This document shows, in pieces, positions 1 through 35,263 of a DNA stretch of 35,292 nucleotides (position 1 is its first letter; each line of letters begins with the position of its first letter). The notes beneath the pieces were generated by a model. That model did not search any database and was not told the origin of the DNA. It worked only from the letters and a program-made list of their open reading frames with translations. The position numbers and the translations under genes are program-made. Source of the stretch: a bacterium. Its GTDB lineage: Bacteria; Vulcanimicrobiota; Vulcanimicrobiia; Vulcanimicrobiales; Vulcanimicrobiaceae. The stretch lies in the NCBI GenBank assembly GCA_021806945.1, contig JAKAPQ010000008.1, positions 1-35,292 of the forward strand. Reading direction: 5' to 3'.

Positions 1-166
1 CTTGACCTCAGCAGCTTGAGGCGGTTTGGAATCCGCTCCTATCAGCTGATTCCGAGGGGCCCTCCCTCATCTCTCGTGTAGCATGGTCACCTCATTCTCC
101 TGAGGCTCCCTTCGTGACACACTGACCTACGGGTCATCCGATCGCCCGAAGTCGCGTCCTAGGGCT

Positions 167-6711: not shown

Positions 6712-8026
6712 ATGACGAACCCGGTGGGTGAAGCGCAAAACGGGACGCTTCGCGTAGAGTTTGACCGCCGTGTGACGTTGCAGTTCCGCGGCTCAGTTGT
6801 AACATCCGATGCGGGTCTGCTCGCCTATCGCGAACTCGATGAGGCGCTCGGTCTGAGCGCAGCGGCGGGCGATGCACTCGCCGATGCACGCACCGGCAGG
6901 AACGGTCGCCATGCGCTCGTCGGCGTGTTGCGCCAAGCAGTGTTCGGCCGCCTCGCGGGATAGGAGGATGTGAACGACGCTGAGCGCCTACGTCACGATC
7001 CAGCGATGCGCTGGATCGTCGGCGGTAACGCGGCTAAGGGCCGCGCAGCATCGCCGAGCCAGATGGGCCGGTTCGAAACGCAATGGCTCGCAGCACCTGA
7101 AAATCTCCGCACCCTCGCCGATCTCTGGAGGCCAATGGATCGACCGCGTTCGCGCGTGTCGGTCACCCCAGGAAGTCATCCTTGATATGGATGGATTCGA
7201 GCGTGAGCCCGACTCATGGCGAGCAAGAGCAAAGCGTCTGGACCGGGCATTTCGGCTGCACGTGCTATCATCCGCTCTTCGTGTTCAACCAGTTTGGCGA
7301 TCTGGAACGATGCGCGCTTCGAGCGGGCAACGTGCACAGCGCAGACGGCTGGGAGCAGGTCCTCAAGCCGGTCGTTGCGCGCTACCGAGGAACGGTGAGA
7401 CGCATCGCCTTTCGCGGTGACGCTGCCTTCGCTCAGCCGAACATGTACGAGTTCCTGGAAGCCGAAGGGATCGACTACGCGATCCGCCTTCCCGCAAACC
7501 AGGTATTACAGGAGCGCATCGGCGATCTGCTTCGGCGGCCGGTCGGACGACCGGCGCACTACGTGCAACGCTTCTATCGGAGCTTTCGCTACCAGGCCGC
7601 GAGTTGGAGCCGCCCCCGTCGGGTCGTTGCGAAGGTGGAGTGGCACCACGGGGAGTTATTCCCGCGCGTCGGCTTCCATAATAAGCGAGGCAGGTGCGAG
7701 CAATGGATAAAGGAAGGGAAGGCCGCGATCAAGTGGACTCGGCTCTCGTGCCGTTCGTTTGATGCCAACGCGGTCCGCCTTCAACTGCACGCGCTCGCGT
7801 ACAATCTTGGGAACTTCCTTCGCACGCTCGCAACGCCCGAGCCGATTCGCGGTCGCTCACGAGTTTGCGCGAGAAGCTCATCAAGATCGGCGCGAAGGTG
7901 GTCAGCCACGGCCGGTACGTTGCCTTCCAAATGGCGGAGGTCGCCATCTCCCGCAATGTGTTTGCGGACATCCTGCGGCTGGTCGCCACGTTGCGCGCGC
8001 CGCCGACTCCGGCGACGGCAATATGA
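6712..8026 (+). pseudogene. IS1380-family transposase, decayed
   Basis: The pieces together cover a nearly full-length DDE transposase. Segment 1 starts at ATG 6712 (LRVEFDRRVTLQFRGSVVTS) and is broken by TAG at 6961-6963, then continues in frame (VNDAERLRHDPAMRWIVGG). The frame shifts near 7130 and again at about 7190, where ATGG is duplicated within LDMDSS. The segment ILDMDSSVSPTHGEQE holds the catalytic region, and RIAFRGDAAFAQPNMYEFLE another. A third shift near 7850 restores the true C-terminus (LREKLIKIGAKVVSHGRYVA), ending at TGA 8024-8026. A TATAAT lies at 6672-6677. At least one nonsense and three frameshift lesions make it inactive. Confidence 0.85.
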
Positions 8027-9691: not shown

Positions 9692-10095
9692 CTCGTTACT
9701 TTCGGTGACTTCATCGATTGTATGGGTCGGTCCGACTTCCGGCAGCCAGCGAGCAGCTTCGGTCTTCCCTCGCTGTTCGCTCCCGGCGGCTCAGCACCGC
9801 CGGCAGCTGCCGGATCTCCCATGTTCCGATACAAGCCTTTCGTACGCGAACTGGCCTTAGACCCCGGCGGAGCGTCACCGTCTCGCATAGCGACGGCGCA
9901 CATGTTGCCTTCATTGCATATGACCAACTCGGCCTCCGCGAGTTTATTCATTACGTGGCTCAATCCCAATCCTCGCACGATCTCTGTCTACGCTTCAGAC
10001 GGTGCGTTACCGCACCGCCTGCAAGACTCGATACCAGCCTGTCCGCTACGACGCTAGCTGGGAGGGACTCGCACCCCCTGGTCTGTATCAGCTTC

Positions 10096-21032: not shown

Positions 21033-21114
21033 GCGCAAGCGATGTTTGCCGTCGCATAGTGGCGGTCGGATCGGCGAAACTATCAAATCGAGCTCTCAAC
21101 GCGAGCCAAGGGCA

Positions 21115-21410
21115 CGTCGGCATGTTTTGTCAATCCGTCTTCGGCAGACTTGCGGGATACGAAGACGTGAACGATGAGCTGCGCTTACGCCACGACCCCA
21201 TCATGCGCTAGATCATCGGTGGTAGAGCAGCGAAAGACTCGGGCGCGTCGCCAAGCCAAACAGGTTGCGAAGCGGCGCTCGTGCACACGCGTCGTGCTCG
21301 ATATGGATTCAAGCGTAGGCCCGACGCATGGCGAGCAAGAGGGCAGCCTCTGGAACGGACATTCCGCCTGCACCTACGACGACGACGAGGGCGCGCCGTT
21401 CTCGGTGCAC
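21115..21410 (+). pseudogene. IS1380-family transposase remnant (second copy)
   Basis: Clear pieces related to the copy at 6712-8026: QSVFGRLAGYEDVNDELRLR then HDPIMR, a TAG in place of tryptophan, IIGGRAAKDSGASPSQTG; then, after an internal deletion and frame change, VVLDMDSSVGPTHGEQEGSL followed by WNGHSACTY. The rest is gone. This copy keeps the tyrosine codon TAC where the first copy has TAG, and keeps tryptophan-to-TAG where the first copy is intact. The two decayed independently. Confidence 0.85.
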
Positions 21411-23398: not shown

Positions 23399-23440
23399 CC
23401 TCGCCGAGGGTTGGCTCCTCGAGCGGTGAAATCAAGAGCT
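23399..23440 (+). repeat. 42-bp direct repeat upstream of tRNA-Thr (left copy)
   Basis: 40 of 42 bases are identical to 34004-34045. The core contains a CGAGG/CCTCG stem with loop GTTGGCT. Together with 23527-23578 it defines the left border of a duplicated tRNA locus. Confidence 0.85.
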
Positions 23441-23463
23441 GGCGGGAACGTCAAGTGCCGTAT

Positions 23464-23540
23464 GCCGACGTAGCTTAGCTGGCTAAAGCACCACTCTTGT
23501 AAAGTGGATACCGCCGGTTCGAATCCGGCCGTCGGCTCCA
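23464..23540 (+). tRNA. tRNA-Thr (anticodon TGT)
   Basis: 77-nt cloverleaf. Acceptor GCCGACG (23464-23470) pairs with CGTCGGC (23530-23536), with T discriminator and encoded CCA at 23538-23540. The D-arm is GCTTAGCTGGCTAAAGC. The anticodon stem CCACT/AGTGG encloses loop CTTGTAA with anticodon TGT at 23498-23500, reading ACA. The T-arm is CCGGTTCGAATCCGG. All arms pair well, so it should be functional. Confidence 0.96.
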
Positions 23541-23578
23541 GCGCTCGGTCCGAAACTCCGCCGAAGGCGCCTCATGCA
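23527..23578 (+). repeat. Direct repeat covering the tRNA-Thr 3' end and downstream flank (left copy)
   Basis: Matches 34061-34112 at about 45 of 52 positions, including GGCCGTCGGCTCCAGC and GAAGGCGCCTCATGCAA. In the right copy the terminal ATG is the start of the ferredoxin-like gene. Here it leads into the SARP-type box of the island. Confidence 0.8.
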
Positions 23579-23584
23579 AGGCAC

Positions 23585-23602
23585 CGTAACGCTCCCGTAA
23601 CG
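23585..23602 (+). promoter_or_regulatory. SARP/BTAD-type operator: paired CGTAACG heptamers
   Basis: CGTAACG at 23585-23591 and again at 23596-23602, separated by 4 bp (11-bp period), lie on the sense strand 21 bp before the start of the first beta-propeller gene. A possible -10 (TGTACT, 23612) is 9 bp downstream. Heptameric direct repeats with 4-bp spacers placed close to the -10 are the known recognition pattern of SARP regulators. An almost identical site, in the same relation to its gene, precedes the BTAD gene at 33892. Confidence 0.65.
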
Positions 23603-23623
23603 CCGACGTGCTGTACTGGAGGA

Positions 23624-24550
23624 ATGAAAACGTACGCATTTCGTGCGGCGTCGGCGATCGGCGTTCTCGCACTGGCCCTCGGTGCACACTCAGCCGCGAA
23701 GCCGGCGCCCAAACCGCAGTGGCTATATGTCTCAGATTCCACGCATACGGTCCGAATCTACAAACTGCCGCTCTCAAGCGCGCCGCGGGCCGGGGCCGTG
23801 CTGACGAATCCCGGCAATGGCCCGGGATACGGCATGGCGGTAGACCGCGCCGGGCGCGTGTATGTCGCGGAGGCAAACGCCGATCTCGTCGGGGTCTTTG
23901 CTCTCAATAAGAAGACCGACCGCATGGTGGAGCTGGCCTCGATTCAAACCGCGAAGCCGGCTTACGATGTTGCGGTCGATGCGGCGGGCAATCTGTACGC
24001 GGCCGAGCCGAGCGGAAACACTATTGAGGTATTTAAAGCGCCCGTCAAGAGCTCGAGCCGGGCCGCCTTCAGCATTACCGGCGGCATCGAGAGCCCCTAT
24101 GGGCTCGCATTCGGGCCGAAAGGCCTGTTGTTCGTTTGCAACGATCGTTCGGTGAAGGAGTACCGCCCGCCATTTCGGGCGAGCAGCCAGAGCGCCGGGA
24201 CGATCGCGGTCGCGGGCCAATCGCAGCCGGACTTTGGGCAAGGCATTGCCGTCAACACGCGAGGCGACGTCTTCTTCGGATACGGAACCATCGTCGAGGT
24301 GGCGAAACCGCCGTACCCCCGAGACCTCTCCAACGTCTACGATCTCGCACTTCCGCCGCATGCGACCGTGATGTACCTCACCTTCGATCGCAGCGGCGAT
24401 CTCTACGTTGCCGCGCAGTACGGCTCGGGGAATGCGCGCAACGGCGTCTACGTCTTCAACGCGCCGCTGAAGAGCGGTAAATCGAATGTCTATGCGCGAT
24501 TCATTCCGCTCGATCAGGCGACCGGCCTAACCGTAGCACCGAGACCTTGA
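23624..24550 (+). CDS. Secreted NHL/SMP-30-like beta-propeller protein
   Basis: 308 aa from ATG 23624 with GGAGGA directly upstream. Signal peptide TYAFRAASAIGVLALALGAH (cleavage near SAA-KP). Repeated blade motifs: GYGMAVDRAGRVYVAEANAD, YDVAVDAAGNLYAAEPSGNT, YGLAFGPKGLLFVCND, GIAVNTRGDVFFGYG and LTFDRSGDLYVAAQYGSG, each a (G/A)(V/L)AxDxxGxLYVA blade as in NHL and SMP-30 propellers. About 5-6 blades. It is probably periplasmic or extracellular and binds something unknown; catalytic metal ligands of lactonases are not obvious. First gene of a tRNA-bounded segment, behind the SARP-type box, so probably regulated by the BTAD protein(s). Confidence 0.85.
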   Translation: MKTYAFRAASAIGVLALALGAHSAAKPAPKPQWLYVSDSTHTVRIYKLPLSSAPRAGAVLTNPGNGPGYGMAVDRAGRVYVAEANADLVGVFALNKKTDRMVELASIQTAKPAYDVAVDAAGNLYAAEPSGNTIEVFKAPVKSSSRAAFSITGGIESPYGLAFGPKGLLFVCNDRSVKEYRPPFRASSQSAGTIAVAGQSQPDFGQGIAVNTRGDVFFGYGTIVEVAKPPYPRDLSNVYDLALPPHATVMYLTFDRSGDLYVAAQYGSGNARNGVYVFNAPLKSGKSNVYARFIPLDQATGLTVAPRP

Positions 24551-24605
24551 CCGCATGCTGCGTCCGATGACTCGCCGAATAGATGCTCTCTCAGAAAGGT
24601 TTACG

Positions 24606-27425
24606 ATGCGGCCATTGACGTGTTTTGCCATATTTGTAGGTCTGGCCATGACGCTAGGTATCGTTCCTCACCATCGCCCGCCTCAACGTCCAAGACCTCC
24701 AACGCCAACCGTGTTCGTGTCATCGATGTTGCGCACAATTCAAGGCTTCGCCCTCCCACTACACTCCGGTGAATCTGGCCCGACCGCACTGCGCGTTCGC
24801 AGCAGTGCCTCGGGAATGGCGATGGATAACCACAACGATCTCTTCGTCGCAGATACGCACGGGAGTGAGATCGATGAGTTTCATTGGACGTGCCATCCGC
24901 ACCGCGGTTGCGCCTGGGTTGAGAGCGGTTCGGTAGCCACGGAAAAGCCAGCCGAAGATGTTGCCGTCGATACGCATGGCACGGTCTACGCCAGTGAATC
25001 AACCAACGAGGCCATTCAGGTCTTTCACGCACCGCTACGTGCGGGAAGCCATGCAGTGTACGAACTTACATTCCCCGATACCGATACACCCAATGGTGTT
25101 GCGGTGGATGCGTCAGGGAATCTCTATGTCGCCGAAACCGAGCGCATCCTGAAGTACGATGCGCCAGTTAGGCCGGCATCGATACCGATGGTGCTGATGA
25201 CCAATCATACAGGAGCATCGGGCAACAGCCCTGACGGTCCTTACGCACGTGGCTTTGCGCCCAGCATCGCGGCATTCGGCGATGCCATCTTCATCGGGAT
25301 GAATCCGCTACCTCAAGATCGTGGGGAAATACAGGTGTTGATCCCACCGTACATCCATCCAATTGCACGCCTGATGTTGCCAGCAGGTGGGTCGGACGTG
25401 CAGTATTTGGCTTTGGACGCTACGGGAAGCATGTACGTCGCGGCACAGTACGGAAGTGGAACCGGAAAAGGCGGCGTATACGCATTTCATGCGCCGTTTG
25501 TCGGCGCGCTCTCGCCGTTTGCGTTCGTTCCAACCGATGACGAGGGCGCAACGGGCGTTGCGGTCGAGGGTGGGGCGCACCGTTTGGCTCTCGCTACGCA
25601 ATCACCACAACCACCACAAGCGATGGCTTACGGAGGATTTTCCCCACCACCTACGCCATCACCACACCCAATGCGCCTGATGAAGAACCCCTACGGGAAT
25701 ATCAGCACTGCATTGAAGCTGGCTACTCCCATGCCACAATCGGTACGTGCGAACATGAAGATTTCGCCACTTCAAATTCCCCGTGTTCGATCTACGCCAC
25801 TATTCACTATTCCGACACGCGGCCAACACATACCATCGAATAGTCTGTCATCGTATCCGACCATCGAAGTTGCTTTCAGCCAGCCGATTTCTCCAGATTC
25901 GATCCTCGCACCCGGAAAGTTCACCTTGACGGGACCCAACGGCCCCATCCCTGGAACGGTCACCCTTGGTAAACTACCGGGCGGCATGCTGAGCGGCGGA
26001 ATTGGGAGTACACCCACACCAAACGCGCTCGCGCAGTTCACTCCTAATAATCCACTCCCGTTGCATACATATATAAGATATACCGCAGATGTCTGTTGCG
26101 TTATAAGTGCCGGAAGCTCTCTTATGGCGCTACCTTATTCTTGGGCATTCACGACCGGCGAGGTCCCTATGCCTACGATCGTGGACGTAAGTCCGGCTAG
26201 TGGCTCAATATCGGGTGGCACCTCCGTTGATATCAGAGGGAATGGCACTAGTTTTTCCTCAAATATGAGGGTTTTATTCGGGGGGATTCCTGCGACGAAC
26301 GTCACGTTCATATCACCCACAGAGATGGCCGCCATCTCGCCAAACGCATACAAACCCGGCCCCGTAGACGTTCGGGTCGCGTTACCTGGTAGCAGTTCTG
26401 GTATTAGTGCTAAGACGCTTCCGGACCAGTTCCTATACATAAGCAACTGGCCTCCACCACCGACCAACCTTTCAGCTGATACGGATTTCCTTTTTATAGG
26501 TTGGACTCAGGTTAGTTGGCCTCAAACTAGCAATCCAAACGATTCATCCAGTAATCCAGGTGCGAAAAACGCGTGCTCTTCACCGACGAGTTACGAGATG
26601 CAGGTTTCTCTCACTCCAACGTTCGGCAGTTTGGGAACCCAAGATACCAAGATTCCCGACCATGGTCCCAATGTCACGTGGCCAGACTGCCAGAATGGGA
26701 CCGCGAGTTCGTTTGAGACCATAGCCCCCAAGGACATGCCGGCGACGTCGCAGCCGCGTCAACCGTTATACTGGCGAGTCGCGTCGCGGTTTTACGGTGA
26801 ACAGGGGCCGTGGTCTCAAGTGTCGTCATTTGTACCAATATGGGGCGGAAACGGAACTCCAGCACAAGCACCTCAACCAACGGCAACGCAAGCACCTCAA
26901 CCAACGCCAACGTCAGCGCCAACCCCGTCTGCGCGCATTATGCTAACAATGAATACGTACAACAATATAAGTTCGAAGTTTACTTTTGCGCTCCTCGGAA
27001 TGTGGCGGTCGAGTCTAAGGAACCCCACGACTCCAAGCGGCGGTGGCAAAACGTGTTTTGCGAAATATACCATGAACCTTCCTCCAGGACAATTTGTGGT
27101 TAATTTTCTCAAAACATGCAAACTAAGCTCTGCATCGAAAAAATTCACTAACGGGTCTGCATCAATATTAGAAAGTGGGTTAAAAGAAGGCTGGTGGAAT
27201 ATCTCTTTAATTCTCGAGAACGGCTGTCCTGTAGACAGATACTATTTACCTGTTCGCATTGTATCTGAGCCATCGAATAATGTTCTCATAAACACGTTGA
27301 CGGTTCAGGACCCACCAGTTAATCTCGCCAAGTATACTCGTTATAGTCGATCGCAAACTAACGCATCTGGAATGATGCCTGGTCCGTGGTTTTCCGTTAA
27401 ACCAATTCCAGGCCCGTGTCAGTAA
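24606..27425 (+). CDS. Secreted multidomain protein: NHL propeller, Big_5-like, IPT/TIG, FN3-like, unknown C-terminus
   Basis: 939 aa from ATG 24606 (AGAAAGG 6 nt upstream; an ATG at 24555 lacks this). Signal peptide with PLTCFAIFVGLAMTLGIV. Domains: NHL-type propeller about 32-338, paralogous to the previous gene (AEDVAVDTHGTVYASES, LALDATGSMYVAAQYGSG); Pro-rich linker; SbsA/Big_5 Ig-like domain about 416-518 (IEVAFSQPISPDS ... YSWAFTTGE); IPT/TIG about 521-610 (PTIVDVSPASGSISGGTSV); fibronectin-like about 615-745 (YWRVASRFYGEQGPWS); a linker of PQPT repeats about 748-775; then an unrecognised domain with several cysteines. The region from about 26450 on is visibly AT-richer than the start, suggesting the C-terminal half was acquired separately. 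Probably cell-surface or extracellular. Confidence 0.85.
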   Translation: MRPLTCFAIFVGLAMTLGIVPHHRPPQRPRPPTPTVFVSSMLRTIQGFALPLHSGESGPTALRVRSSASGMAMDNHNDLFVADTHGSEIDEFHWTCHPHRGCAWVESGSVATEKPAEDVAVDTHGTVYASESTNEAIQVFHAPLRAGSHAVYELTFPDTDTPNGVAVDASGNLYVAETERILKYDAPVRPASIPMVLMTNHTGASGNSPDGPYARGFAPSIAAFGDAIFIGMNPLPQDRGEIQVLIPPYIHPIARLMLPAGGSDVQYLALDATGSMYVAAQYGSGTGKGGVYAFHAPFVGALSPFAFVPTDDEGATGVAVEGGAHRLALATQSPQPPQAMAYGGFSPPPTPSPHPMRLMKNPYGNISTALKLATPMPQSVRANMKISPLQIPRVRSTPLFTIPTRGQHIPSNSLSSYPTIEVAFSQPISPDSILAPGKFTLTGPNGPIPGTVTLGKLPGGMLSGGIGSTPTPNALAQFTPNNPLPLHTYIRYTADVCCVISAGSSLMALPYSWAFTTGEVPMPTIVDVSPASGSISGGTSVDIRGNGTSFSSNMRVLFGGIPATNVTFISPTEMAAISPNAYKPGPVDVRVALPGSSSGISAKTLPDQFLYISNWPPPPTNLSADTDFLFIGWTQVSWPQTSNPNDSSSNPGAKNACSSPTSYEMQVSLTPTFGSLGTQDTKIPDHGPNVTWPDCQNGTASSFETIAPKDMPATSQPRQPLYWRVASRFYGEQGPWSQVSSFVPIWGGNGTPAQAPQPTATQAPQPTPTSAPTPSARIMLTMNTYNNISSKFTFALLGMWRSSLRNPTTPSGGGKTCFAKYTMNLPPGQFVVNFLKTCKLSSASKKFTNGSASILESGLKEGWWNISLILENGCPVDRYYLPVRIVSEPSNNVLINTLTVQDPPVNLAKYTRYSRSQTNASGMMPGPWFSVKPIPGPCQ

Positions 27426-27590
27426 CGACCGCGAGACGACCTGCGGTTACCGGCGCCGATGGTGGTGCGAGTCCTAATACACTCCATCTAACGCGTTCGC
27501 ACGTCGGTAACATCAATAGAATCGTGCCGGAAGGACCAGGGTAATGCCGCCGTTACCAGTCGGCTTTTCCGAAAGGACGAAGTACGTGCC
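27426..27590. other. Intergenic region between beta-propeller genes
   Basis: 165 bases without a gene. No terminator with T-tract and no second CGTAACG pair are visible. A single GTAACG half-site occurs at 27423-27428, across the upstream stop codon. AAAGGA at about 27571 is too far from the next ATG to be a good ribosome-binding site. Confidence 0.35.
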
Positions 27591-28895
27591 ATGAAGCGAA
27601 CCATCCTCATCTTTGCAACAGTGTTTGCTTTCGCCTGCCCGAGTCTCGCGGCGCGTGTGCCACTTGAGCGCGCCTATATTGCGACGCACGGGCATCTCGA
27701 AGAGTTTCTGATCGCTCCGAACGGTCTGATGTTTCCGGTCGGCTATAAGGGTCTGCCGAAGAACTTCAGCTCCTGGACGTTGCCTTCACGCGTATCCATA
27801 CCAACCTTAAAGCAGGCTGGCGCGGTCGTCGCAACGCCGAACGAGAAGTATCTCTACGTCGCAGGTTGCGCCCGGGATCGCACGCGGATCGTTTACGGTA
27901 GGCACCCTATTCTCGAGGAGATCGCGGCGTATCACATCGTGGGTGGTATTCCCCATGCGCTTGGTTCGCCGACACAGATCGATGATTGCCTCACGGGAAA
28001 TCAGGCACCCTATCAGACCCTCGCGGTCAGTCGTAACGGCGCGTTTCTTTTTGCGACGGGCGGGATAACATACCATACCACCGGCGATCCGGTATCGACC
28101 GCCGTTCGCTCCTTTGCGATTGCCGCAAATGGGATGTTGACGCCGATCTCAACGGTAAGGCTCACGGGCTCTCCTCTCGGCGCGTATACTGCGCATGATT
28201 CGACGGGGCGATGGCTGTTTGTCGCCGGCATCTCTGCGCGATATCAAGCACCATTGACATTGGCGGAGCTCCACGTCGCAGCGGATGGCTCGCTTACCCT
28301 TGCTGGAACGACGTCATTCGCGGGACGACTCGATGCTTTCACCGGTTTGGCAAGTGCTGCGCGGCGGCCGCTGCTATACGTTGCGGGGGAGAAAATCTCA
28401 AATACCGGTGTGCAGACCGAAGTTTTCGGTTACCGAATCGGAGCGGGTGGTGCGCTGACGCCAGTCCCCGGACCGGCCGCGACCAATACCGGCCTTACAC
28501 CGACCGATCAGCCGAACTACGCGAGCCTCGCGATCGCTCCGTCCGGCCATTTGCTCTACGTCCTGGGTGCAATGGCAAGTCGTGCCGATGGCGCACTCAT
28601 CCAATCATACGCGATCGGTGCCGCCGGCCGATTGCGCGTCGCGCATGGCTCAGCCGCCGAAACCAAGGCGGTTAAGCAGCCGCAGATGATCGTGCCCGAT
28701 CCAACCGGACGGTTCCTATATGAAATGGATCTTTCAGCCGGCTTCATGGGCGCACCGGCGATTGTCGAGTTCCGAGACTCTCCCGACGGAGCGATCGTTT
28801 CTAACATGCACGCATGTCTGAAGGGAGGCCCGAATTCAATCGTCATTTGCGGTCGCGTGCCGGCGTTCACCGGCCCAATCGCAATCTTAAAGTAA
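27591..28895 (+). CDS. Secreted lactonase-like (YncE/YVTN-type) beta-propeller protein
   Basis: 434 aa with a compact signal peptide (KRTILIFATVFAFACPSLAA). Blades follow the pattern of 6-phosphogluconolactonase-like propellers: VVATPNEKYLYVAGC, LAVSRNGAFLFATGG, AHDSTGRWLFVAGISA, YASLAIAPSGHLLYVLGAMA and IVPDPTGRFLYEMD, each separated by SFAIAANGMLTPIS-like stretches (FxIxxxGxLTP). The fold is clear; enzymatic activity is not, and catalytic residues of true Pgl enzymes cannot be confirmed. The cysteine pair near the end (NMHACLKGG, IVICGRV) may form a disulfide. Third propeller gene in the segment, 41 nt ahead of a BTAD regulator gene. Confidence 0.85.
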   Translation: MKRTILIFATVFAFACPSLAARVPLERAYIATHGHLEEFLIAPNGLMFPVGYKGLPKNFSSWTLPSRVSIPTLKQAGAVVATPNEKYLYVAGCARDRTRIVYGRHPILEEIAAYHIVGGIPHALGSPTQIDDCLTGNQAPYQTLAVSRNGAFLFATGGITYHTTGDPVSTAVRSFAIAANGMLTPISTVRLTGSPLGAYTAHDSTGRWLFVAGISARYQAPLTLAELHVAADGSLTLAGTTSFAGRLDAFTGLASAARRPLLYVAGEKISNTGVQTEVFGYRIGAGGALTPVPGPAATNTGLTPTDQPNYASLAIAPSGHLLYVLGAMASRADGALIQSYAIGAAGRLRVAHGSAAETKAVKQPQMIVPDPTGRFLYEMDLSAGFMGAPAIVEFRDSPDGAIVSNMHACLKGGPNSIVICGRVPAFTGPIAILK

Positions 28896-28936
28896 CATCT
28901 GCAGGACTATACCTTTCGCCCCATAACGCTCGGGCT

Positions 28937-31900
28937 ATGGCGGCGCCGCTTCGAGTAAAAGCGCTCGGGCAGTTCGACGTTCGCGACGCCGATGGCGGAC
29001 CTTTGCGCGAGACGCACCTGCGCCGCACTGCACCGCTGCTCAAAGAACTCATCAGCCGGGTTCCACACGCCTGGGATCGGGTAGGCTTGGCTGCAACATT
29101 GTGGCCCGGCTCGGCTGCAAAAACCGCAGCCGCGAATCTGCGTGTGATGCTGCACGCGCTTCGGGCGGCTCTGCGGGAGGCCAACGCTGCTGAAGCGCTG
29201 TCGGCAGATGGCGACCGAGTTGCCTTGAATTCAGAACTCTGGCAGATCGACGCGGACGATTTCGAGAGATCCACGATCTCCGCATTGCGTGAGGGCTCGG
29301 CCGACGAGCAGTTCGCGGCCGTGCTCCGTTACGCCGGCGCCTTTCTTCCGGACGATTTCGCCGAGAGTTCGGCCTTGCGTCGCACGGCGCTGGAGTCGCT
29401 GTATCGCTCGGCTCTCCTGCGCTGCGCGGCCACGATTTCCGACGGCGCACTCGAACGGCGGTTGTGGACGCAGTTTGAAGCCGATCGCGAGGATTGTGAG
29501 ATCGCGCGCGCCCTCTCACGCCATTGTGCTGCTCACGGCAACCACCTGGAGGCGGCGCGCGTCTTCACCTTTCATCAAGAGGCCGCTGCGCTCGCGCAAT
29601 GTATCTGCGCCGTCGACGAGACTCCTGCCGAAAACGGTACGCCATCGTTTGCATTCTCGGTGCCGACGCTCTGGGAGCGTACGCCTTTCCCGCCCTTCAT
29701 CGGGCGCGATATGGAGGTAGCCCAGCTCGGTGACATGCTTGACGACGCTATCGCCGGGCGCAGACGCACCCTCGTGCTGGTGGGCGAACCGGGAATCGGC
29801 AAAACGCGGCTCGCCGGCGAAATCATGGCCGAAGCACAGGATCGCGGTGCGTGCGTTTTTGTGGTTACATGCGGTGTCGCTCGGCAGACCCCATTGCGAC
29901 CGTTCATCCGCACGCTCGAAACCGTGCTCGACGCGATTCCCGATGCGGCCGCAGCCATTGCGTTCGCCTCCTTCGGTCCGGTGCTCGCACGCCTTTCACA
30001 AGCGATACGACGCCGCATCGATTTCCCCGAAAAGCGATCCGGGATCGACGTCGGGCGCGCCGTCTTCGCGGTGGCACGCACGGTCGAGAACCTCTGCACG
30101 ATGTGGCCCGTCGTCCTGCTCGTGGAAGATCTGCACTTGGCGGACGCTGCATCGCTCGCGGCGTTCAGTGCGCTGGCGGCTTCGCCGCTCGAACGCCGGC
30201 TGCTGCTCGTCGGCACCGCTCGCGAGGACGACCTCCGCACCTCTGTTGCGGGCGAGGTGCTGGAGACGGCGCGCGGCGAAACGTCACTGCTGCGCTTGGG
30301 ACCCCTCTCGCATGATGAATCGTTGATTCTGGCTCGGCGGCTCTGGGATTCGGGCGCCCGGCCCGAGATCGTCGCGCGCCGCGCCGGCGGCAATCCGCTT
30401 GGAATTCTCGAGTATTGTAAGGGTGGGCATCGCATGCGAAAGCTCGAATCGGCCATCGCCCAGCGCATCCAGCGAGAGCCGGCCGAACTACGGTCGGTTC
30501 TTGAAGTCCTTGCACTGGCAGAGCCGGTTCCGCTTTCCGAGGTCTCGCTGCGGCGCATGCTGCAGCGCCGTTCCATCTCCCAAACCCTCGAACGCGCGCT
30601 GAGCTCGCGCCTGCTGCAAAAACAACCTCTGGGCTACTGCGTCGCTCACGGCATTTTTACCGACGTCATCGAGAATCAGCTTACCACGGCGCGCGCCGAG
30701 ACGATCCATGCGCGGCTCGCGCTCTTGCCGGAGTTCCAAGATCATCCGGATACGCTAGCCTTTCATTATCTCTGCGCCGGACCGGGCTACCGGAGCGATG
30801 CGATTGCGGCTACGCTCTGCGCCCTGGACGAAGCAATGGCCGTCCGTAATCCGGCTGCCATCCTCGACATCCTGCGCAGGGCCCGCGGGATTATCGGGCC
30901 CGACGACGCACGCCTATTCCCCCTTGCATACGGTTTGGGGATTGCGGAGACGTTCGGCGGAGATGCGGCCTTGGCGCACCGAGCGCTCCGCGAAGCGCTC
31001 GCGGCTGCAAGAGATGACGGGCAGCGCATCGACGCCTACGTTGCACTCATTGGCCTTGCCGAGACCTCGATGCGTGTCGACGAAGGGCTGCAACTCTGCG
31101 ATGAGGCGGAGTCGATCGTTTCCGGCGCGAGCGATCCTCGCGCTCTTCCCATCGTTCAGCGGCGCGCATTTCTACTGCTCCTTGCCGGCCGGTACGACGA
31201 GGCAACGGTCGTTGCCCGGCTTCTCCTGCGCTCACCTCTGGCCGACGAGATCGTCCGCGTGAGAGCGCAGCTCGCGATCGCAATCGCGCTAGCATATCGC
31301 GGCCGGCGCCCCGACGCCATTGAATGGTTTCAGCGTGCAAGGCGCGCGGCCGACCGCCTAGGCGAGGCGCAAGAGTCTGCGCTGGTCGTCGTCAATCTCG
31401 CATCGGCACATTTTCATGCAGGTGCACTGGGCGCGGCACGAGACCTCTACGTGCGGGCGGCGGAATTTTCGCTCTCGCGCGGACGGCTCGCCAATGCCTC
31501 CATCAGCATACGCAACGCAGGCGAATGCGAATATTACATCGGCAATCAAGAGGCCTCCGCCTCGTACGTCGCCGTTGCGGAACGGCGCGCTGCACGAACC
31601 GGACGACCCATGCTCGTAGCCGAAGCGCAAATGTTGCGAGGCGCAATTGCCGGAGTGCGCGAAAGCCCTGAAGCGTTCCGGCAGTTCGAGGCCGCCGCGC
31701 AGGCGTTTGTCTCGCACAAGGACGCCAAACTTCATTCCGACGTTGCGGGTCACGCGCTCGTCGCGTGCCGGCACGCAGGCCGGCGGGAACAAGTCGAGTT
31801 GTGGGAGCAGCGTGGACTAGGCACCATCGATCGGTGCGCCGATGTCGACACGCGCTGCTTCTTTAATGCTGCGCGCGCAGCGGCGCGGGCGATGTGCGGA

Positions 31901-32143
31901 GATGCGGATATCGCGCGCGGAGCCCTCGACTTGGCGCTCGCCGATCTCGGCGCGGTCGGTGCGGCGACGCGCCGGATGGAAAATGCGGCACTTTGCTGCG
32001 AGGCGGCGATTGAGTTGCGGGCAGCGCACCACGCTCGCGCAGCACTTGCGTCGGTGAAAACAGTGCGCGAGGAGAGCGACGCACAGCGTCTGCGAGACTG
32101 GCTGAGCGCGCTCGAACGCTCGCTATCTGGCTTGACCCAGTAG
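28937..32143 (+). CDS. SARP/BTAD-type regulator with AAA-type ATPase and TPR repeats (AfsR-like)
   Basis: 1068 aa. The frame is open to 28814, but that part overlaps the previous gene, so ATG 28937 (MAAPLRVKALGQFDVRDADG) is preferred; it starts with the usual LGxF beta-strand of SARP winged-helix domains. Domains: winged helix about 5-95 (AAANLRVMLHALRAALRE); BTAD about 96-240; STAND/AAA ATPase with Walker A GEPGIGKTR (about 281) and Walker B VVLLVEDLHLAD (about 392); winged-helix/TPR region from about 500 to the end with many TPR-like helices (LRIRN..., EALAAARDDGQRIDAY). This is the AfsR/MalT-like switch design: ATP binding and a signal sensed by the TPRs control DNA binding. It ends inside the convergent BTAD gene by 21 bp. 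Confidence 0.88.
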   Translation: MAAPLRVKALGQFDVRDADGGPLRETHLRRTAPLLKELISRVPHAWDRVGLAATLWPGSAAKTAAANLRVMLHALRAALREANAAEALSADGDRVALNSELWQIDADDFERSTISALREGSADEQFAAVLRYAGAFLPDDFAESSALRRTALESLYRSALLRCAATISDGALERRLWTQFEADREDCEIARALSRHCAAHGNHLEAARVFTFHQEAAALAQCICAVDETPAENGTPSFAFSVPTLWERTPFPPFIGRDMEVAQLGDMLDDAIAGRRRTLVLVGEPGIGKTRLAGEIMAEAQDRGACVFVVTCGVARQTPLRPFIRTLETVLDAIPDAAAAIAFASFGPVLARLSQAIRRRIDFPEKRSGIDVGRAVFAVARTVENLCTMWPVVLLVEDLHLADAASLAAFSALAASPLERRLLLVGTAREDDLRTSVAGEVLETARGETSLLRLGPLSHDESLILARRLWDSGARPEIVARRAGGNPLGILEYCKGGHRMRKLESAIAQRIQREPAELRSVLEVLALAEPVPLSEVSLRRMLQRRSISQTLERALSSRLLQKQPLGYCVAHGIFTDVIENQLTTARAETIHARLALLPEFQDHPDTLAFHYLCAGPGYRSDAIAATLCALDEAMAVRNPAAILDILRRARGIIGPDDARLFPLAYGLGIAETFGGDAALAHRALREALAAARDDGQRIDAYVALIGLAETSMRVDEGLQLCDEAESIVSGASDPRALPIVQRRAFLLLLAGRYDEATVVARLLLRSPLADEIVRVRAQLAIAIALAYRGRRPDAIEWFQRARRAADRLGEAQESALVVVNLASAHFHAGALGAARDLYVRAAEFSLSRGRLANASISIRNAGECEYYIGNQEASASYVAVAERRAARTGRPMLVAEAQMLRGAIAGVRESPEAFRQFEAAAQAFVSHKDAKLHSDVAGHALVACRHAGRREQVELWEQRGLGTIDRCADVDTRCFFNAARAAARAMCGDADIARGALDLALADLGAVGAATRRMENAALCCEAAIELRAAHHARAALASVKTVREESDAQRLRDWLSALERSLSGLTQ

Positions 32144-33892
32144 CTTCCGCAGCCGGCGCCGGTACGAGTCGCGCCGATTGCGCGGCAGCGCTGCGAGCAT
32201 CACCGCTGCTACTGCCGACGGTACCATAAATCGGTCGTCTTCGGCACCCAGTAGGCCGATATCGAATAGCCGCACCTGCACTTGAGCAATTTCTTCCTCA
32301 GCGCTACCGGAAAGACACGCGAGCGTAGATGGACAAACCGGCTCTCCAACAAATGACATTGCCCGCAAGACCTCCAGCTCCGCGATCGGCAGCGAGCGCA
32401 GGCTGTGCTCGATTCGTGCGGTAAGGTCCCGCGGTATCAATGCATCTATCGGCGTTTCTACCGGTATCTCCCACGCGTACCCGCGCTGAACGAAGGGCGC
32501 GCTAAGGACGTGCCGAGCGGCGGCGATAAGGGCGCGAATGTCGCTTGGCCAGAGATCCGCTAGCGCTTGCGCGAGACGCGGCCCAACCGTTCCACCGAAA
32601 ACACCTTCAACAATCGCGACGCGATCTTCGAACTTCAGCGGTTTCAGAGCCATGTCATTCAACCAGGGGTGAGCCGGGCCGGCGCGCTTGCGCGCAGCGA
32701 ACAGCCACAGAATCGGAAGGTCGGCCGTCGCGCGGACGAGTGCGGCTACATCCTCGCCAAACGCACGCTCGTCCAGATCGGCATCGTCAATCGCAAATAC
32801 GCACGGCTGCACCGATGCCAGCGCATGAACGGTACGCACGAGAGGGTCGCGCGACGATGTCGGCGGCGCAATACCGTCGATGGCGCTGCGAACTGGCTCC
32901 AGTGCCATATGCGAATCAGCGACCCTGTAGCATCGGACGACACTCGTTGCGAAGCCTCGATGGGCGGCGATCCGAACGATCTCGTGAAGAAGAGCGGATT
33001 TCCCAGAAGCTGCGCCGCCGAGAATGCGTAGGGCGGCACCGCATCCACTAGCCACACGCTCCAAGACTTCTCCAAGGGCGGCAAGATCCTCGCCCCTGCC
33101 GATCAGCGAATCCCCCGTCGCAGGCTTGGCCACCGGCTCCCGAGCTAAGAGGTCCAGCGAACTCGAAAGTTTCCGCTTCGTCTTACTCGCAACGGCATCG
33201 CGGTGCGAGGCGAACGTCGCTCGGGCGGAATCGGCGTTGCCGGCCAGCGACAGACGCGCGAAAAGCAGCTCTGCCAGAGCTTCATCGTACGGGTAGCGCC
33301 GGAACGCAGGAACGAGGATCTCCAGCGCCTGTGCGTTCTTTTCGGCCTTGAGCAACCAGCACACCAACTGCGCACACAGCGCACGGTGCAAGCGCTGCAC
33401 GCGCTCGCGTATCGCCAGGACTTCGTCATGGCCCTCACCCGGCATGTACTCACCTGCGCAAAGCGCATTCAAGGCGATGGCACGTTCGCAAAACGTCTCG
33501 CCGCGTTCGCTGCCGGCAAGCAGCGCAATCGAATCGCGTTCGAATGTCAGTGCGTCGACCGCAGGCTCGTAAACCGGATTCACGCACAGGACCCCGGACT
33601 CCAGGAGCGCGATGCTGTTCGATTCGAAGACCGCCGGCTCAGCCAGCGTAAACGCCCGGCGCAAATCATGCAGGCGAACGCGCAGATTCGCCCTTGCCGC
33701 AGACGGATCGGAGTCCGGCCACAGTTCTTCGGCAACGGCGTCAGCGAAACAGCGAAATGCCGGTTTACGGAGGAGAATCTTGAGGACGGCCGCCGACCGC
33801 CTTCGGGAGTCTTCGAAAACGACGCGTCCGCGCCAGCGAACGGCAAACTGGCCGAGGGTCACGACATCAAGTCCGCTCTCATAGCCATTCAT
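32123..33892 (-). CDS. SARP/BTAD-type regulator with ATPase domain
   Basis: 589 aa from ATG 33892 (GGGAAGG 8 nt upstream; the frame is open to 33928). Domains: winged-helix DNA-binding about 8-85 (VVTLGQFAVRWRGRVVFEDS, ARANLRVRLHDLRRAF); BTAD about 105-250 (VDALTFERD, FRRYPYDEALAELLFARLSL); P-loop ATPase about 260-450 with Walker A GGAASGKSALLH (292-303) and Walker B PCVFAIDDADLDE (about 349). It lacks the long TPR tail of its convergent neighbour. A CGTAACG-N4-CGTAACG direct repeat lies 57-74 bp upstream of the ATG in the sense orientation, suggesting autoregulation. The same repeat precedes the first beta-propeller gene. Its 3' end overlaps the opposite BTAD gene. Confidence 0.85.
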   Translation of the reverse strand: MNGYESGLDVVTLGQFAVRWRGRVVFEDSRRRSAAVLKILLRKPAFRCFADAVAEELWPDSDPSAARANLRVRLHDLRRAFTLAEPAVFESNSIALLESGVLCVNPVYEPAVDALTFERDSIALLAGSERGETFCERAIALNALCAGEYMPGEGHDEVLAIRERVQRLHRALCAQLVCWLLKAEKNAQALEILVPAFRRYPYDEALAELLFARLSLAGNADSARATFASHRDAVASKTKRKLSSSLDLLAREPVAKPATGDSLIGRGEDLAALGEVLERVASGCGAALRILGGAASGKSALLHEIVRIAAHRGFATSVVRCYRVADSHMALEPVRSAIDGIAPPTSSRDPLVRTVHALASVQPCVFAIDDADLDERAFGEDVAALVRATADLPILWLFAARKRAGPAHPWLNDMALKPLKFEDRVAIVEGVFGGTVGPRLAQALADLWPSDIRALIAAARHVLSAPFVQRGYAWEIPVETPIDALIPRDLTARIEHSLRSLPIAELEVLRAMSFVGEPVCPSTLACLSGSAEEEIAQVQVRLFDIGLLGAEDDRFMVPSAVAAVMLAALPRNRRDSYRRRLRKLLGQAR

Positions 33893-33948
33893 GATTATGG
33901 CCTTCCCCCGCCGCAAGCAATATTGCATCCCCGAGTCTACAGCGCCGA

Positions 33949-33966
33949 CGTTACGGGAACGTTACG
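33949..33966 (-). promoter_or_regulatory. SARP/BTAD-type operator upstream of the 589-aa BTAD gene
   Basis: On the minus strand CGTAACG (33960-33966) - TTCC - CGTAACG (33949-33955), an exact copy of the two heptamers at 23585-23602 with the same 4-bp spacing and a spacer differing by one base (TTCC here, CTCC there). The bases after it are similar too (TCGGCG here, CCGACG there). A TAGACT hexamer lies 9 bp downstream as a possible -10. Confidence 0.65.
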
Positions 33967-34003
33967 ATGCGGAAAGCCACGCAACGTACATGCGCCACGG
34001 CTT

Positions 34004-34112
34004 CCTCGCCGAGGGTTGGCTCCTCGAGCGGTGAAGTCAAGAGTTCTCTAGCCGGCTAAAGGCCGTCGGCTCCAGCAGGCGGTCTCCAACTCCGCAGAAG
34101 GCGCCTCATGCA
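34004..34112 (+). pseudogene. Decayed direct copy of the tRNA-Thr locus (right border repeat)
   Basis: 34004-34045 repeats 23399-23440 (40/42). 34047-34060 keeps a D-arm relic (CTAGCCGGCTAAAG against the intact CTTAGCTGGCTAAAG). 34061-34112 repeats the tRNA 3' acceptor end with CCA (GCCGTCGGCTCCA) and the downstream flank. The 5' acceptor, anticodon arm and T-arm are missing, so no tRNA can be made. It forms the right border of the segment that begins at tRNA-Thr 23464, and its last three-plus bases include the ATG of the next gene. Confidence 0.8.
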
Positions 34113-34446
34113 ATCCGTCAAGCCCAAGTGGACCGAATCCGGACTCGTATTGGTATGCGAGCGCTGTTACAAGGAGCGCATCCCCGAGGAAGACCCGGAG
34201 AAAGCGGTCGAGATCGGCGCCTTTCATCTGCGCGAGTGGCTCAAGAAGCGCTTGAAAGAAGACGGCCACTGGGGCCGGGTGCGGGCGATCGCCACGGGCT
34301 GCATGGACGTCTGCGCGCGTCGCCGCGTCACCGTTTGCATCGTTCCGCAACGCCTGGACGAGATCGCCGAAATCCTCGTCGTAGACCCCGTCACGGAGCG
34401 TAACGCACTCTACCGGACGATCGTCGAACGGCTCGCCGGCCGTTAA
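34108..34446 (+). CDS. Small 2Fe-2S thioredoxin-like ferredoxin (DUF1636-like)
   Basis: 112 aa, AGAAGGCG shortly before the ATG. Four cysteines are arranged as CERC (about 18-21) and GCMDVC (about 64-69), with VTVCIVP just after: LVLVCERCYKERI ... ATGCMDVCARRRVTVCI. This is the pattern of thioredoxin-fold [2Fe-2S] ferredoxins and DUF1636 metal-binding proteins, with the cluster held by the two Cys pairs. The C-terminal half holds LDEIAEILV. Redox partner unknown. In the ancestral order it probably followed tRNA-Thr directly, because the repeat shared with 23527-23578 ends at its start codon. Confidence 0.75.
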   Translation: MQSVKPKWTESGLVLVCERCYKERIPEEDPEKAVEIGAFHLREWLKKRLKEDGHWGRVRAIATGCMDVCARRRVTVCIVPQRLDEIAEILVVDPVTERNALYRTIVERLAGR

Positions 34447-34450
34447 CCGA

Positions 34451-34614
34451 AGCAGGTTGCGGAAAAAGCCGCGTGCCAATATCCGCGGAGCGATTTTGGG
34501 CGATTTCGAAGCCCGAAGAAGGAGCAACGCCGTAGCGTTGTGACTGATGAGCAACGAAGAAAGCGTCCAAAATCGCCCGCGGGATTGGTGCGGGGATTTT
34601 TTCCGCAACCTGCT
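34451..34614. repeat. MITE-like 164-bp palindromic element between convergent genes
   Basis: Perfect 17-bp terminal inverted repeats: AGCAGGTTGCGGAAAAA at 34451-34467 and its complement at 34598-34614. Inside, the inverted symmetry continues imperfectly (GCGATTTTGG near 34490 and CCAAAATCGC near 34567), so the arms pair over about 60 bp. A perfect CAACGC-CGTA-GCGTTG hairpin sits near the centre (about 34529-34544). It begins 5 nt after the stop of the ferredoxin-like gene and ends within the stop codon of the sigma factor gene. No ORF is inside. It may be a non-autonomous transposable element, a bidirectional terminator or both. Confidence 0.7.
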
Positions 34615-35263
34615 AGGGCAGCTCGATCTCGGAGAGGTTCTTCTCGATCTTGCGCTTGACGCGCTGCAGAGCGTTGTCGATCGACTTTACGTGGCGGCCG
34701 AGGTCGCGGGCCATCTCCTGATAACTCTTGCCTTCGAGATACGATAGGAGTACTTGCGACTCGAGCTCCGAGAGGTTCTCCTGAATGCGCTCTTTGATAT
34801 CCTGAGAGACTTCCTGGTTGATTACGAGCTCTTCGGGATCGGAGGTCTTCTGCGAAGCCATCACGTCGAGCAGCGTTCGCTCGCTATCCTCATCGTAGAT
34901 GGGCTTGTTCAGCGAAATGTACTGGTTGAGCGGAATGTGCTTCTGCCGCGTAGCCGTCTTGATGGCCGTGATGATCTGGCGCGTGATACAGAGCTCGGCA
35001 AACGCACGGAAACTCGACAACTTGTCGGCTTTGAAATCGCGCACGGCCTTGTAGAGCCCGATCATCCCTTCTTGGATGATATCCTCGCGGTCCGCTCCGA
35101 TCAGGAAGTAGCTCTTGGCCTTGATGCGAACGAAGTTCTTGTACTTATTGAGCAGGAACTCCATCGCCAGGTCGTCGCCCGACTTCGCGATGGCAACGAG
35201 GTCCTCGTCGACCCGCTCGTGATATTCGACGCCATCCGCCGCGACGGGATGGGTTATTGCCAT
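34613..35263 (-). CDS. SigH-like (sigma-30 type) RNA polymerase sigma factor
   Basis: 216-aa group 3 sigma factor similar in length and motifs to SigH of spore-formers. Region 2: ALNKYK-like AMEFLLNKYKNFVRIKAKSY, then IGADREDIIQEGMIGLYKAV (2.2/2.3), then SSFRAFAELCITRQIITAIK (2.4). A linker carries RQKHIPLNQYISLNKPIYDE, and region 4 is LSELESQVLLSYLEGKSYQE then DLGRHVKSIDNALQRVKRKI (HTH). It lacks a separate ECF-type short linker, so it is a SigH/FliA-like rather than ECF factor. Targets unknown. Its stop codon lies within the end of the palindromic element. No promoter can be judged because only 29 nt upstream are in the window. Confidence 0.92.
   Translation of the reverse strand: MAITHPVAADGVEYHERVDEDLVAIAKSGDDLAMEFLLNKYKNFVRIKAKSYFLIGADREDIIQEGMIGLYKAVRDFKADKLSSFRAFAELCITRQIITAIKTATRQKHIPLNQYISLNKPIYDEDSERTLLDVMASQKTSDPEELVINQEVSQDIKERIQENLSELESQVLLSYLEGKSYQEMARDLGRHVKSIDNALQRVKRKIEKNLSEIELP

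Follow-up and report, generated by a model that had tools for sequence, protein, structure and literature searches.

A five-gene block of 10,424 bp lies between a tRNA-Thr(TGT) gene and the ferredoxin-like gene that follows this tRNA in related bacteria, and it is bordered by an intact and a decayed copy of the tRNA-Thr stretch. One other species of the same uncultured Eremiobacterota genus (G051) shares the block, and another (G050) has an empty site in its place. We propose, at a probability of about 0.6, that this putative 10.4-kb regulon was inserted in an ancestor of G000 and G051 by homologous or unequal recombination, with duplication of a 181-bp stretch of the target. The window, i.e. 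the whole stretch of DNA that was analysed (35,292 bp), is one entire contig of G000, a 2.36-Mb MAG that is 87% complete. The sharing of the block with G051, the matching SARP-type promoters at its two ends and the paralogues of its genes in the same genome are observations that go beyond the first-pass annotation of this DNA.

The tRNA-Thr stretch and its decayed copy

The single tRNA that ARAGORN detects in the window is an intact tRNA-Thr(TGT) at 23464-23540 (+), which scores 71.4 bits against Rfam RF00005. It is part of the left copy of the repeat, T (23399-23579, +), a 181-bp stretch that comprises 65 bp of upstream DNA, the tRNA and 39 bp of downstream DNA ending in ATGCAA. The right copy, T' (34004-34113, +), is 110 bp long and retains a 40-bp part of the upstream DNA, a piece of the D arm, the acceptor end and the 39 bp downstream. 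Self-BLAST of the window returns them as a direct repeat in two pieces, one upstream (23399-23438 and 34004-34043, 40 bp, 98% identity, E 4e-12) and one downstream (23527-23579 and 34061-34113, 53 bp, 87% identity, E 5e-11). Global alignment reveals two internal losses in T', of about 38 bp from the upstream element to the D arm and of about 37 bp covering the anticodon, variable and T arms, so that the tRNA of the right copy is dead. Over the aligned bases the two copies are about 9% different, similar to the divergence of the flanks between G000 and G050. Sigma-70 and terminator scans of T and T' found nothing; that the duplicated 40 bp act as a shared promoter is no more than a conjecture.

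The first-pass annotation had described a repeated tRNA-Thr stretch. The repeat is real, with its limits shifted: the duplicated unit starts 65 bp 5' of the tRNA and ends 39 bp downstream of it, 6 bp into the ferredoxin-like gene. As the unit ends after ATGCAA, the left copy holds a six-base stub of that gene, corresponding to its first two codons. The complete gene (34108-34446, +) codes for a DUF1636-like protein of 112 aa, whose match to DUF1636 is below cut-off (E 0.071). The inserted DNA proper spans 23580-34003, and the G000 assembly, at 87% completeness, contains no second intact copy of the tRNA-Thr locus besides this one.

A MITE-like element of about 165 bp with terminal inverted repeats (AGCAGGTTGCGGAAAAA...) is present at 34448-34613; it is absent from this position in G051 and G050, and the genus harbours several copies of nearly full length, along with dozens of fragments. 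A sigma factor gene (34613-35263, -), whose product scores above the NCBIfam cut-offs for sporulation SigH, adjoins the ferredoxin-like gene in this Eremiobacterota MAG. Elsewhere in the contig, 6908-7261 and 21105-21373 are diverged copies of one stretch and look by eye like IS1380-type transposase remnants, the second of which is 2 kb upstream of tRNA-Thr. Two different matches to group II intron D1-D4 models (Rfam) were found at 9852-10071 (-) and 1-68 (-), the latter cut by the contig end. Since 3500-21000 matches its congeners in scattered pieces alone, on several contigs of G051 and G050, it is a highly variable region.

Ancestral order, empty site and shared block

The ferredoxin-like protein is present in 75 of the 99 family genomes, G000 included, and we compared the flanks of its gene in the 29 best family relatives that have it. 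tRNA-Thr(TGT) lies upstream of the gene and in the same orientation in 28 of them, and all 28, G050 among them, have one copy of tRNA-Thr at this place. The distance between the two genes is 8-92 bp at 22 of the 28 loci and 325-675 bp at the remaining six. Those six loci were considered as similar insertions and rejected, as by eye each gap contains one small gene (VOC-like, isoprenylcysteine-methyltransferase-like or YciI-like) and no tRNA repeat. The comparison shows that the ferredoxin-like gene is the ancestral neighbour of tRNA-Thr, as the first-pass annotation had supposed. It had also suggested looking for relatives in which tRNA-Thr(TGT) directly precedes the ferredoxin-like gene, with no block in between, and such relatives exist, including G050.

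Within the genus, G050 has no block and exactly one 181-bp unit (L035 1185-1365), and its left and right flanks are 91% and 92% identical to those of G000, respectively. G051 carries the block at 95% identity, together with a similarly decayed right copy of 109 bp. Its ferredoxin-like protein is 96% identical to that of G000, compared with 89% for G050, indicating that G051 is the closer relative. The block is found in two of the three sequenced species of the genus (G000 and G051), G050 being the one without it. Given the empty sites and the single tRNA copies in the relatives, the simplest reading is that the block was inserted between tRNA-Thr and the gene that ancestrally followed it.

The genomes of the genus are MAGs in many contigs. 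The G051 contig breaks inside the gene of the 956-aa propeller, at the apparent start of an IS3-type OrfA (VKRSRRNHTAAFK; family assigned by eye), and a search of the G051 assembly recovered neither the rest of the block nor the left flank with the intact tRNA. The left junction is thus read from G000 alone, and the right junction from G000 and G051. As both genomes have the block, its right end is unlikely to be a chimeric join.

Gene content of the block

Four of the five genes of the block, those for three propellers and the 1109-aa regulator, are oriented rightward, and the gene for the 601-aa regulator is oriented leftward. The rightward genes code for a secreted NHL/SBBP-type beta-propeller of 308 aa (23624-24550, +), an NHL propeller of 956 aa with an IPT/TIG domain (24555-27425, +), a secreted lactonase-like propeller of 434 aa (27591-28895, +) and a large SARP-type regulator of 1109 aa with an AAA_16/STAND ATPase and TPR (28814-32143, +). 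The leftward gene (32123-33928, -) codes for a medium SARP/BTAD-type regulator of 601 aa with a STAND ATPase. None of the five is an integrase gene, and as the block is nearly all coding, it has no room for one. Its GC content, 60.3% versus 58-62% in the flanks, is uninformative as a sign of foreign origin. Judging from its sequence, the block looks like a regulon complete in itself, with three predicted secreted propellers, two regulators and two matching promoters, one per end.

Several of these genes have paralogues in the genus. An unlinked paralogue of the 434-aa propeller (G000:C41) shares 49% identity with it and is encoded behind a promoter of the same kind. The 1109-aa regulator has a 47% identical paralogue at G000:C206, and the 601-aa regulator, which is 94% identical in G051, is about 40% identical to its own paralogue at that locus. 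The paralogues of both regulators form a convergent pair at G000:C206, which is also found in G050; at the paralogous locus of G051, just a fragment of the medium regulator is kept. The large regulator's best match from other genera, in 149 genomes of the phylum, is 35% identical. With such paralogues in the genus and so distant a match outside it, the block may represent paralogous material of long standing or, alternatively, may have been imported from a relative that has not been sampled.

SARP-type promoters and regulators

The left promoter, that of the propeller operon (23585-23617, +), consists of CGTAACG-CTCC-CGTAACG at 23585-23602 followed by the -10-like element TGCTGTACT at 23609-23617, 6 nt before the ATG (23624) of the 308-aa propeller gene. 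The right promoter (33966-33934, -) has the same layout, with CGTAACG-TTCC-CGTAACG at 33966-33949 and the -10-like element TGTAGACT at 33941-33934, 5 nt before the ATG (33928) of the 601-aa regulator gene, and it is conserved in G051 (L096 12457-12488). The exact CGTAACG-N4-CGTAACG motif occurs in the G000 assembly at the two block ends, once at each, and nowhere else. With up to three mismatches allowed, the window contains 14 matches versus 4.85 expected, a number reached in none of 100 shuffles. The box combined with an extended -10 is found five times in G000, three times in G051, twice in G050 and five times in the other 96 family genomes, counts that are partly circular because the first matches had served to define the pattern; the reversed-pattern control gave zero in G000, G051 and G050.

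Support for the promoters that is independent of these counts comes from the genes found behind boxes elsewhere in the genus, mostly exported (a propeller lipoprotein, the 434-aa propeller paralogue, a CsgG-family gene and an exported 249-aa protein), and from the paralogous locus. There, related divergent boxes flank the medium regulator in all three species, as SARP-type pairs at L093 15348 (-)/15384 (+), L094 12504/12540 and L095 352/388. This divergent arrangement persists in all three, despite the loss of most of the paralogous regulator from G051. We also considered the near-terminal boxes of the block as inverted repeats of a transposon and rejected this idea, since they lie 5 bp from one end but 37 bp from the other, face start codons and recur at other promoters.

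The documented operator of SARPs consists of heptamer repeats with 4-bp spacers, and SARPs include medium proteins of about 600 aa and large ones of about 1000 aa, with a STAND/NB-ARC-type ATPase and TPR (PMC10972967, PMC5930380). The regulators of the block are alike in size and in architecture, with a central NB-ARC/STAND-type ATPase in both and TPR in the large one. These assignments come from AAA_16 and TPR matches, that of AAA_16 in the 601-aa protein being just under cut-off. SARPs begin with a winged-helix DNA-binding domain and BTAD. Pfam searches with the two regulators gave no direct BTAD match; the C206 paralogue of the medium regulator has sub-threshold matches to Trans_reg_C (E 0.0015) and to BTAD (E 0.0049). 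The AlphaFold model of the medium regulator is weak (mean pLDDT 59, with a low-confidence N-terminus), and its retrieval of the NB-ARC proteins NRC3, CED-4 and APAF-1 is supportive at most. Neither the medium regulator nor its paralogue gave a match in sequence searches of the PDB. The medium regulator has one weak BTAD match and no close relative in the plasmid collection, and the large one found no match among viral contigs.

As in the SARP regulons of Streptomyces, the heptamer direct repeats of the block are separated by spacers of about 4 bp and placed just upstream of the -10. In contrast with those regulons, the predicted targets code for exported beta-propellers instead of antibiotic genes, the phylum is another one, the heptamer is CGTAACG and the -10 lies merely 5-7 nt ahead of several start codons, which gives the promoters a leaderless look. 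We propose that the block forms a regulon, in which one or both regulators would bind CGTAACG-N4-CGTAACG at the two ends and would thereby activate the propeller operon as well as the gene of the medium regulator.

Route of insertion

The comparisons establish which gene order is ancestral, that the block is inserted DNA with a 181-bp duplication around it, that the right tRNA copy has decayed and that G051 has the block as well. In our proposal, a common ancestor of G000 and G051 would have received the putative 10.4-kb regulon downstream of tRNA-Thr(TGT) and ahead of the ferredoxin-like gene, and the 181-bp target stretch would have been doubled around the incoming DNA. The duplication would have arisen by homologous or unequal recombination and not through an integrase, possibly with a circle or a transforming fragment bearing a copy of the tRNA-Thr stretch as the donor. 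After it, the tRNA and the beginning of the next gene would both have remained whole, and the spare tRNA copy would then have decayed. Recombination of this kind is favoured by the lack of an integrase, the extension of the repeat over the whole tRNA and both flanks, the presence of ComEC in the genus and the failure to find Ku in its three genomes. The repeated flank sequences are genus-specific, none being found in other genera among the compared family loci, which points to this genus as the source of the second copy. Neither a donor locus nor a circular form of the block was found, and among phages just one tRNA-Thr matched the tRNA-Thr stretch, over 56 bp.

The nearest experimental parallel is provided by the transformation-linked duplications of pneumococcus, generated by unequal or interchromatid recombination (PMC3784515). 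There as here, direct repeats border the added segment, and homology drives the event with no need for an element-borne enzyme. However, the pneumococcal duplications involve segments of about 100-900 kb bordered by IS repeats, whereas a 181-bp target surrounds foreign or paralogous DNA in our case, and the event is known from sequence and was not observed happening. Because the tRNA stretch is directly repeated, the block might also be imagined as an integrase-free mobile regulon that leaves as a circle and enters the tRNA-Thr locus of congeners by RecA, equipped with its own regulators and promoters, a scenario that we regard as distinctly doubtful.

Standard tRNA islands carry an integrase and leave a fragment of the end of the tRNA (PMC4383910). 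The block has in common with Islander-type tDNA islands an intact tRNA at one end, a remnant in the same orientation at the other, accessory genes in between and an empty site in a relative, here G050 (PMC4383910). It might be a degenerate island, installed by a tyrosine integrase from an attP whose copy of the locus was unusually long, and later deprived of the integrase gene, and IS activity subsequent to the insertion is indeed seen within the block in G051. Yet no integrase or remnant thereof is present in DNA that is nearly all coding, and searches of plasmid and viral collections with the regulators tested found nothing closely related to them. Furthermore, islands displace an end piece of the tRNA cut at the crossover, whereas T' also includes the D arm, 40 bp from upstream and 39 bp from downstream and became a remnant by internal deletions; the left copy likewise extends 39 bp beyond the tRNA. 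We consider this origin improbable, and the argument made in the first-pass annotation against an ordinary tyrosine-integrase island, based on the missing integrase and on a repeat that includes both flanks of the tRNA, holds.

Alternatively, the 181 bp may represent a target-site duplication, produced by a staggered break or an unknown transposase with the overhangs filled in on both sides. The direct abutment of both repeats on the inserted DNA and the lack of visible microhomology at the joins would fit, but this is unlikely given that no transposase was found, that the exact ends have no terminal inverted repeats (the boxes being 5 and 37 bp in), that Ku was not found in the three genomes and that casposon duplications, by comparison, are of about 15 bp (PMC9939771). 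It is also conceivable, if quite unlikely, that the insertion predates the split of the genus and that recombination between the repeats cleanly excised the block from G050. Such a loss is feasible with direct repeats, and the difference between T and T' is comparable to the divergence of the flanks between G000 and G050; nevertheless, an extra event is needed, G050 shows no trace of having held an insertion, and the gene order is the same at the 27 further family loci that lack the block. As for an old tandem array of tRNA-Thr genes with other genes between its members, for which the two locus copies of G000 might speak, it is refuted by the empty sites, with a single copy in all 28 relatives that have the tRNA and exactly one unit in G050. 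The first-pass annotation had named a segment and repeat shared by all relatives as the sign of such an array; instead, the block is present in G051 and absent from G050, in line with its preferred reading of an insertion with duplication.

With an empty site in a sister species, this locus clearly documents the states before and after a tRNA gene gained new neighbours, and it does so in the absence of integrase hallmarks. The acquired genes are predicted to form a regulon of the SARP type that governs exported beta-propellers, for which both an operator and leaderless-looking promoters can be named. Hardly any experimental genetics is available for this phylum, and the identification of the operator makes the predicted regulon directly testable.
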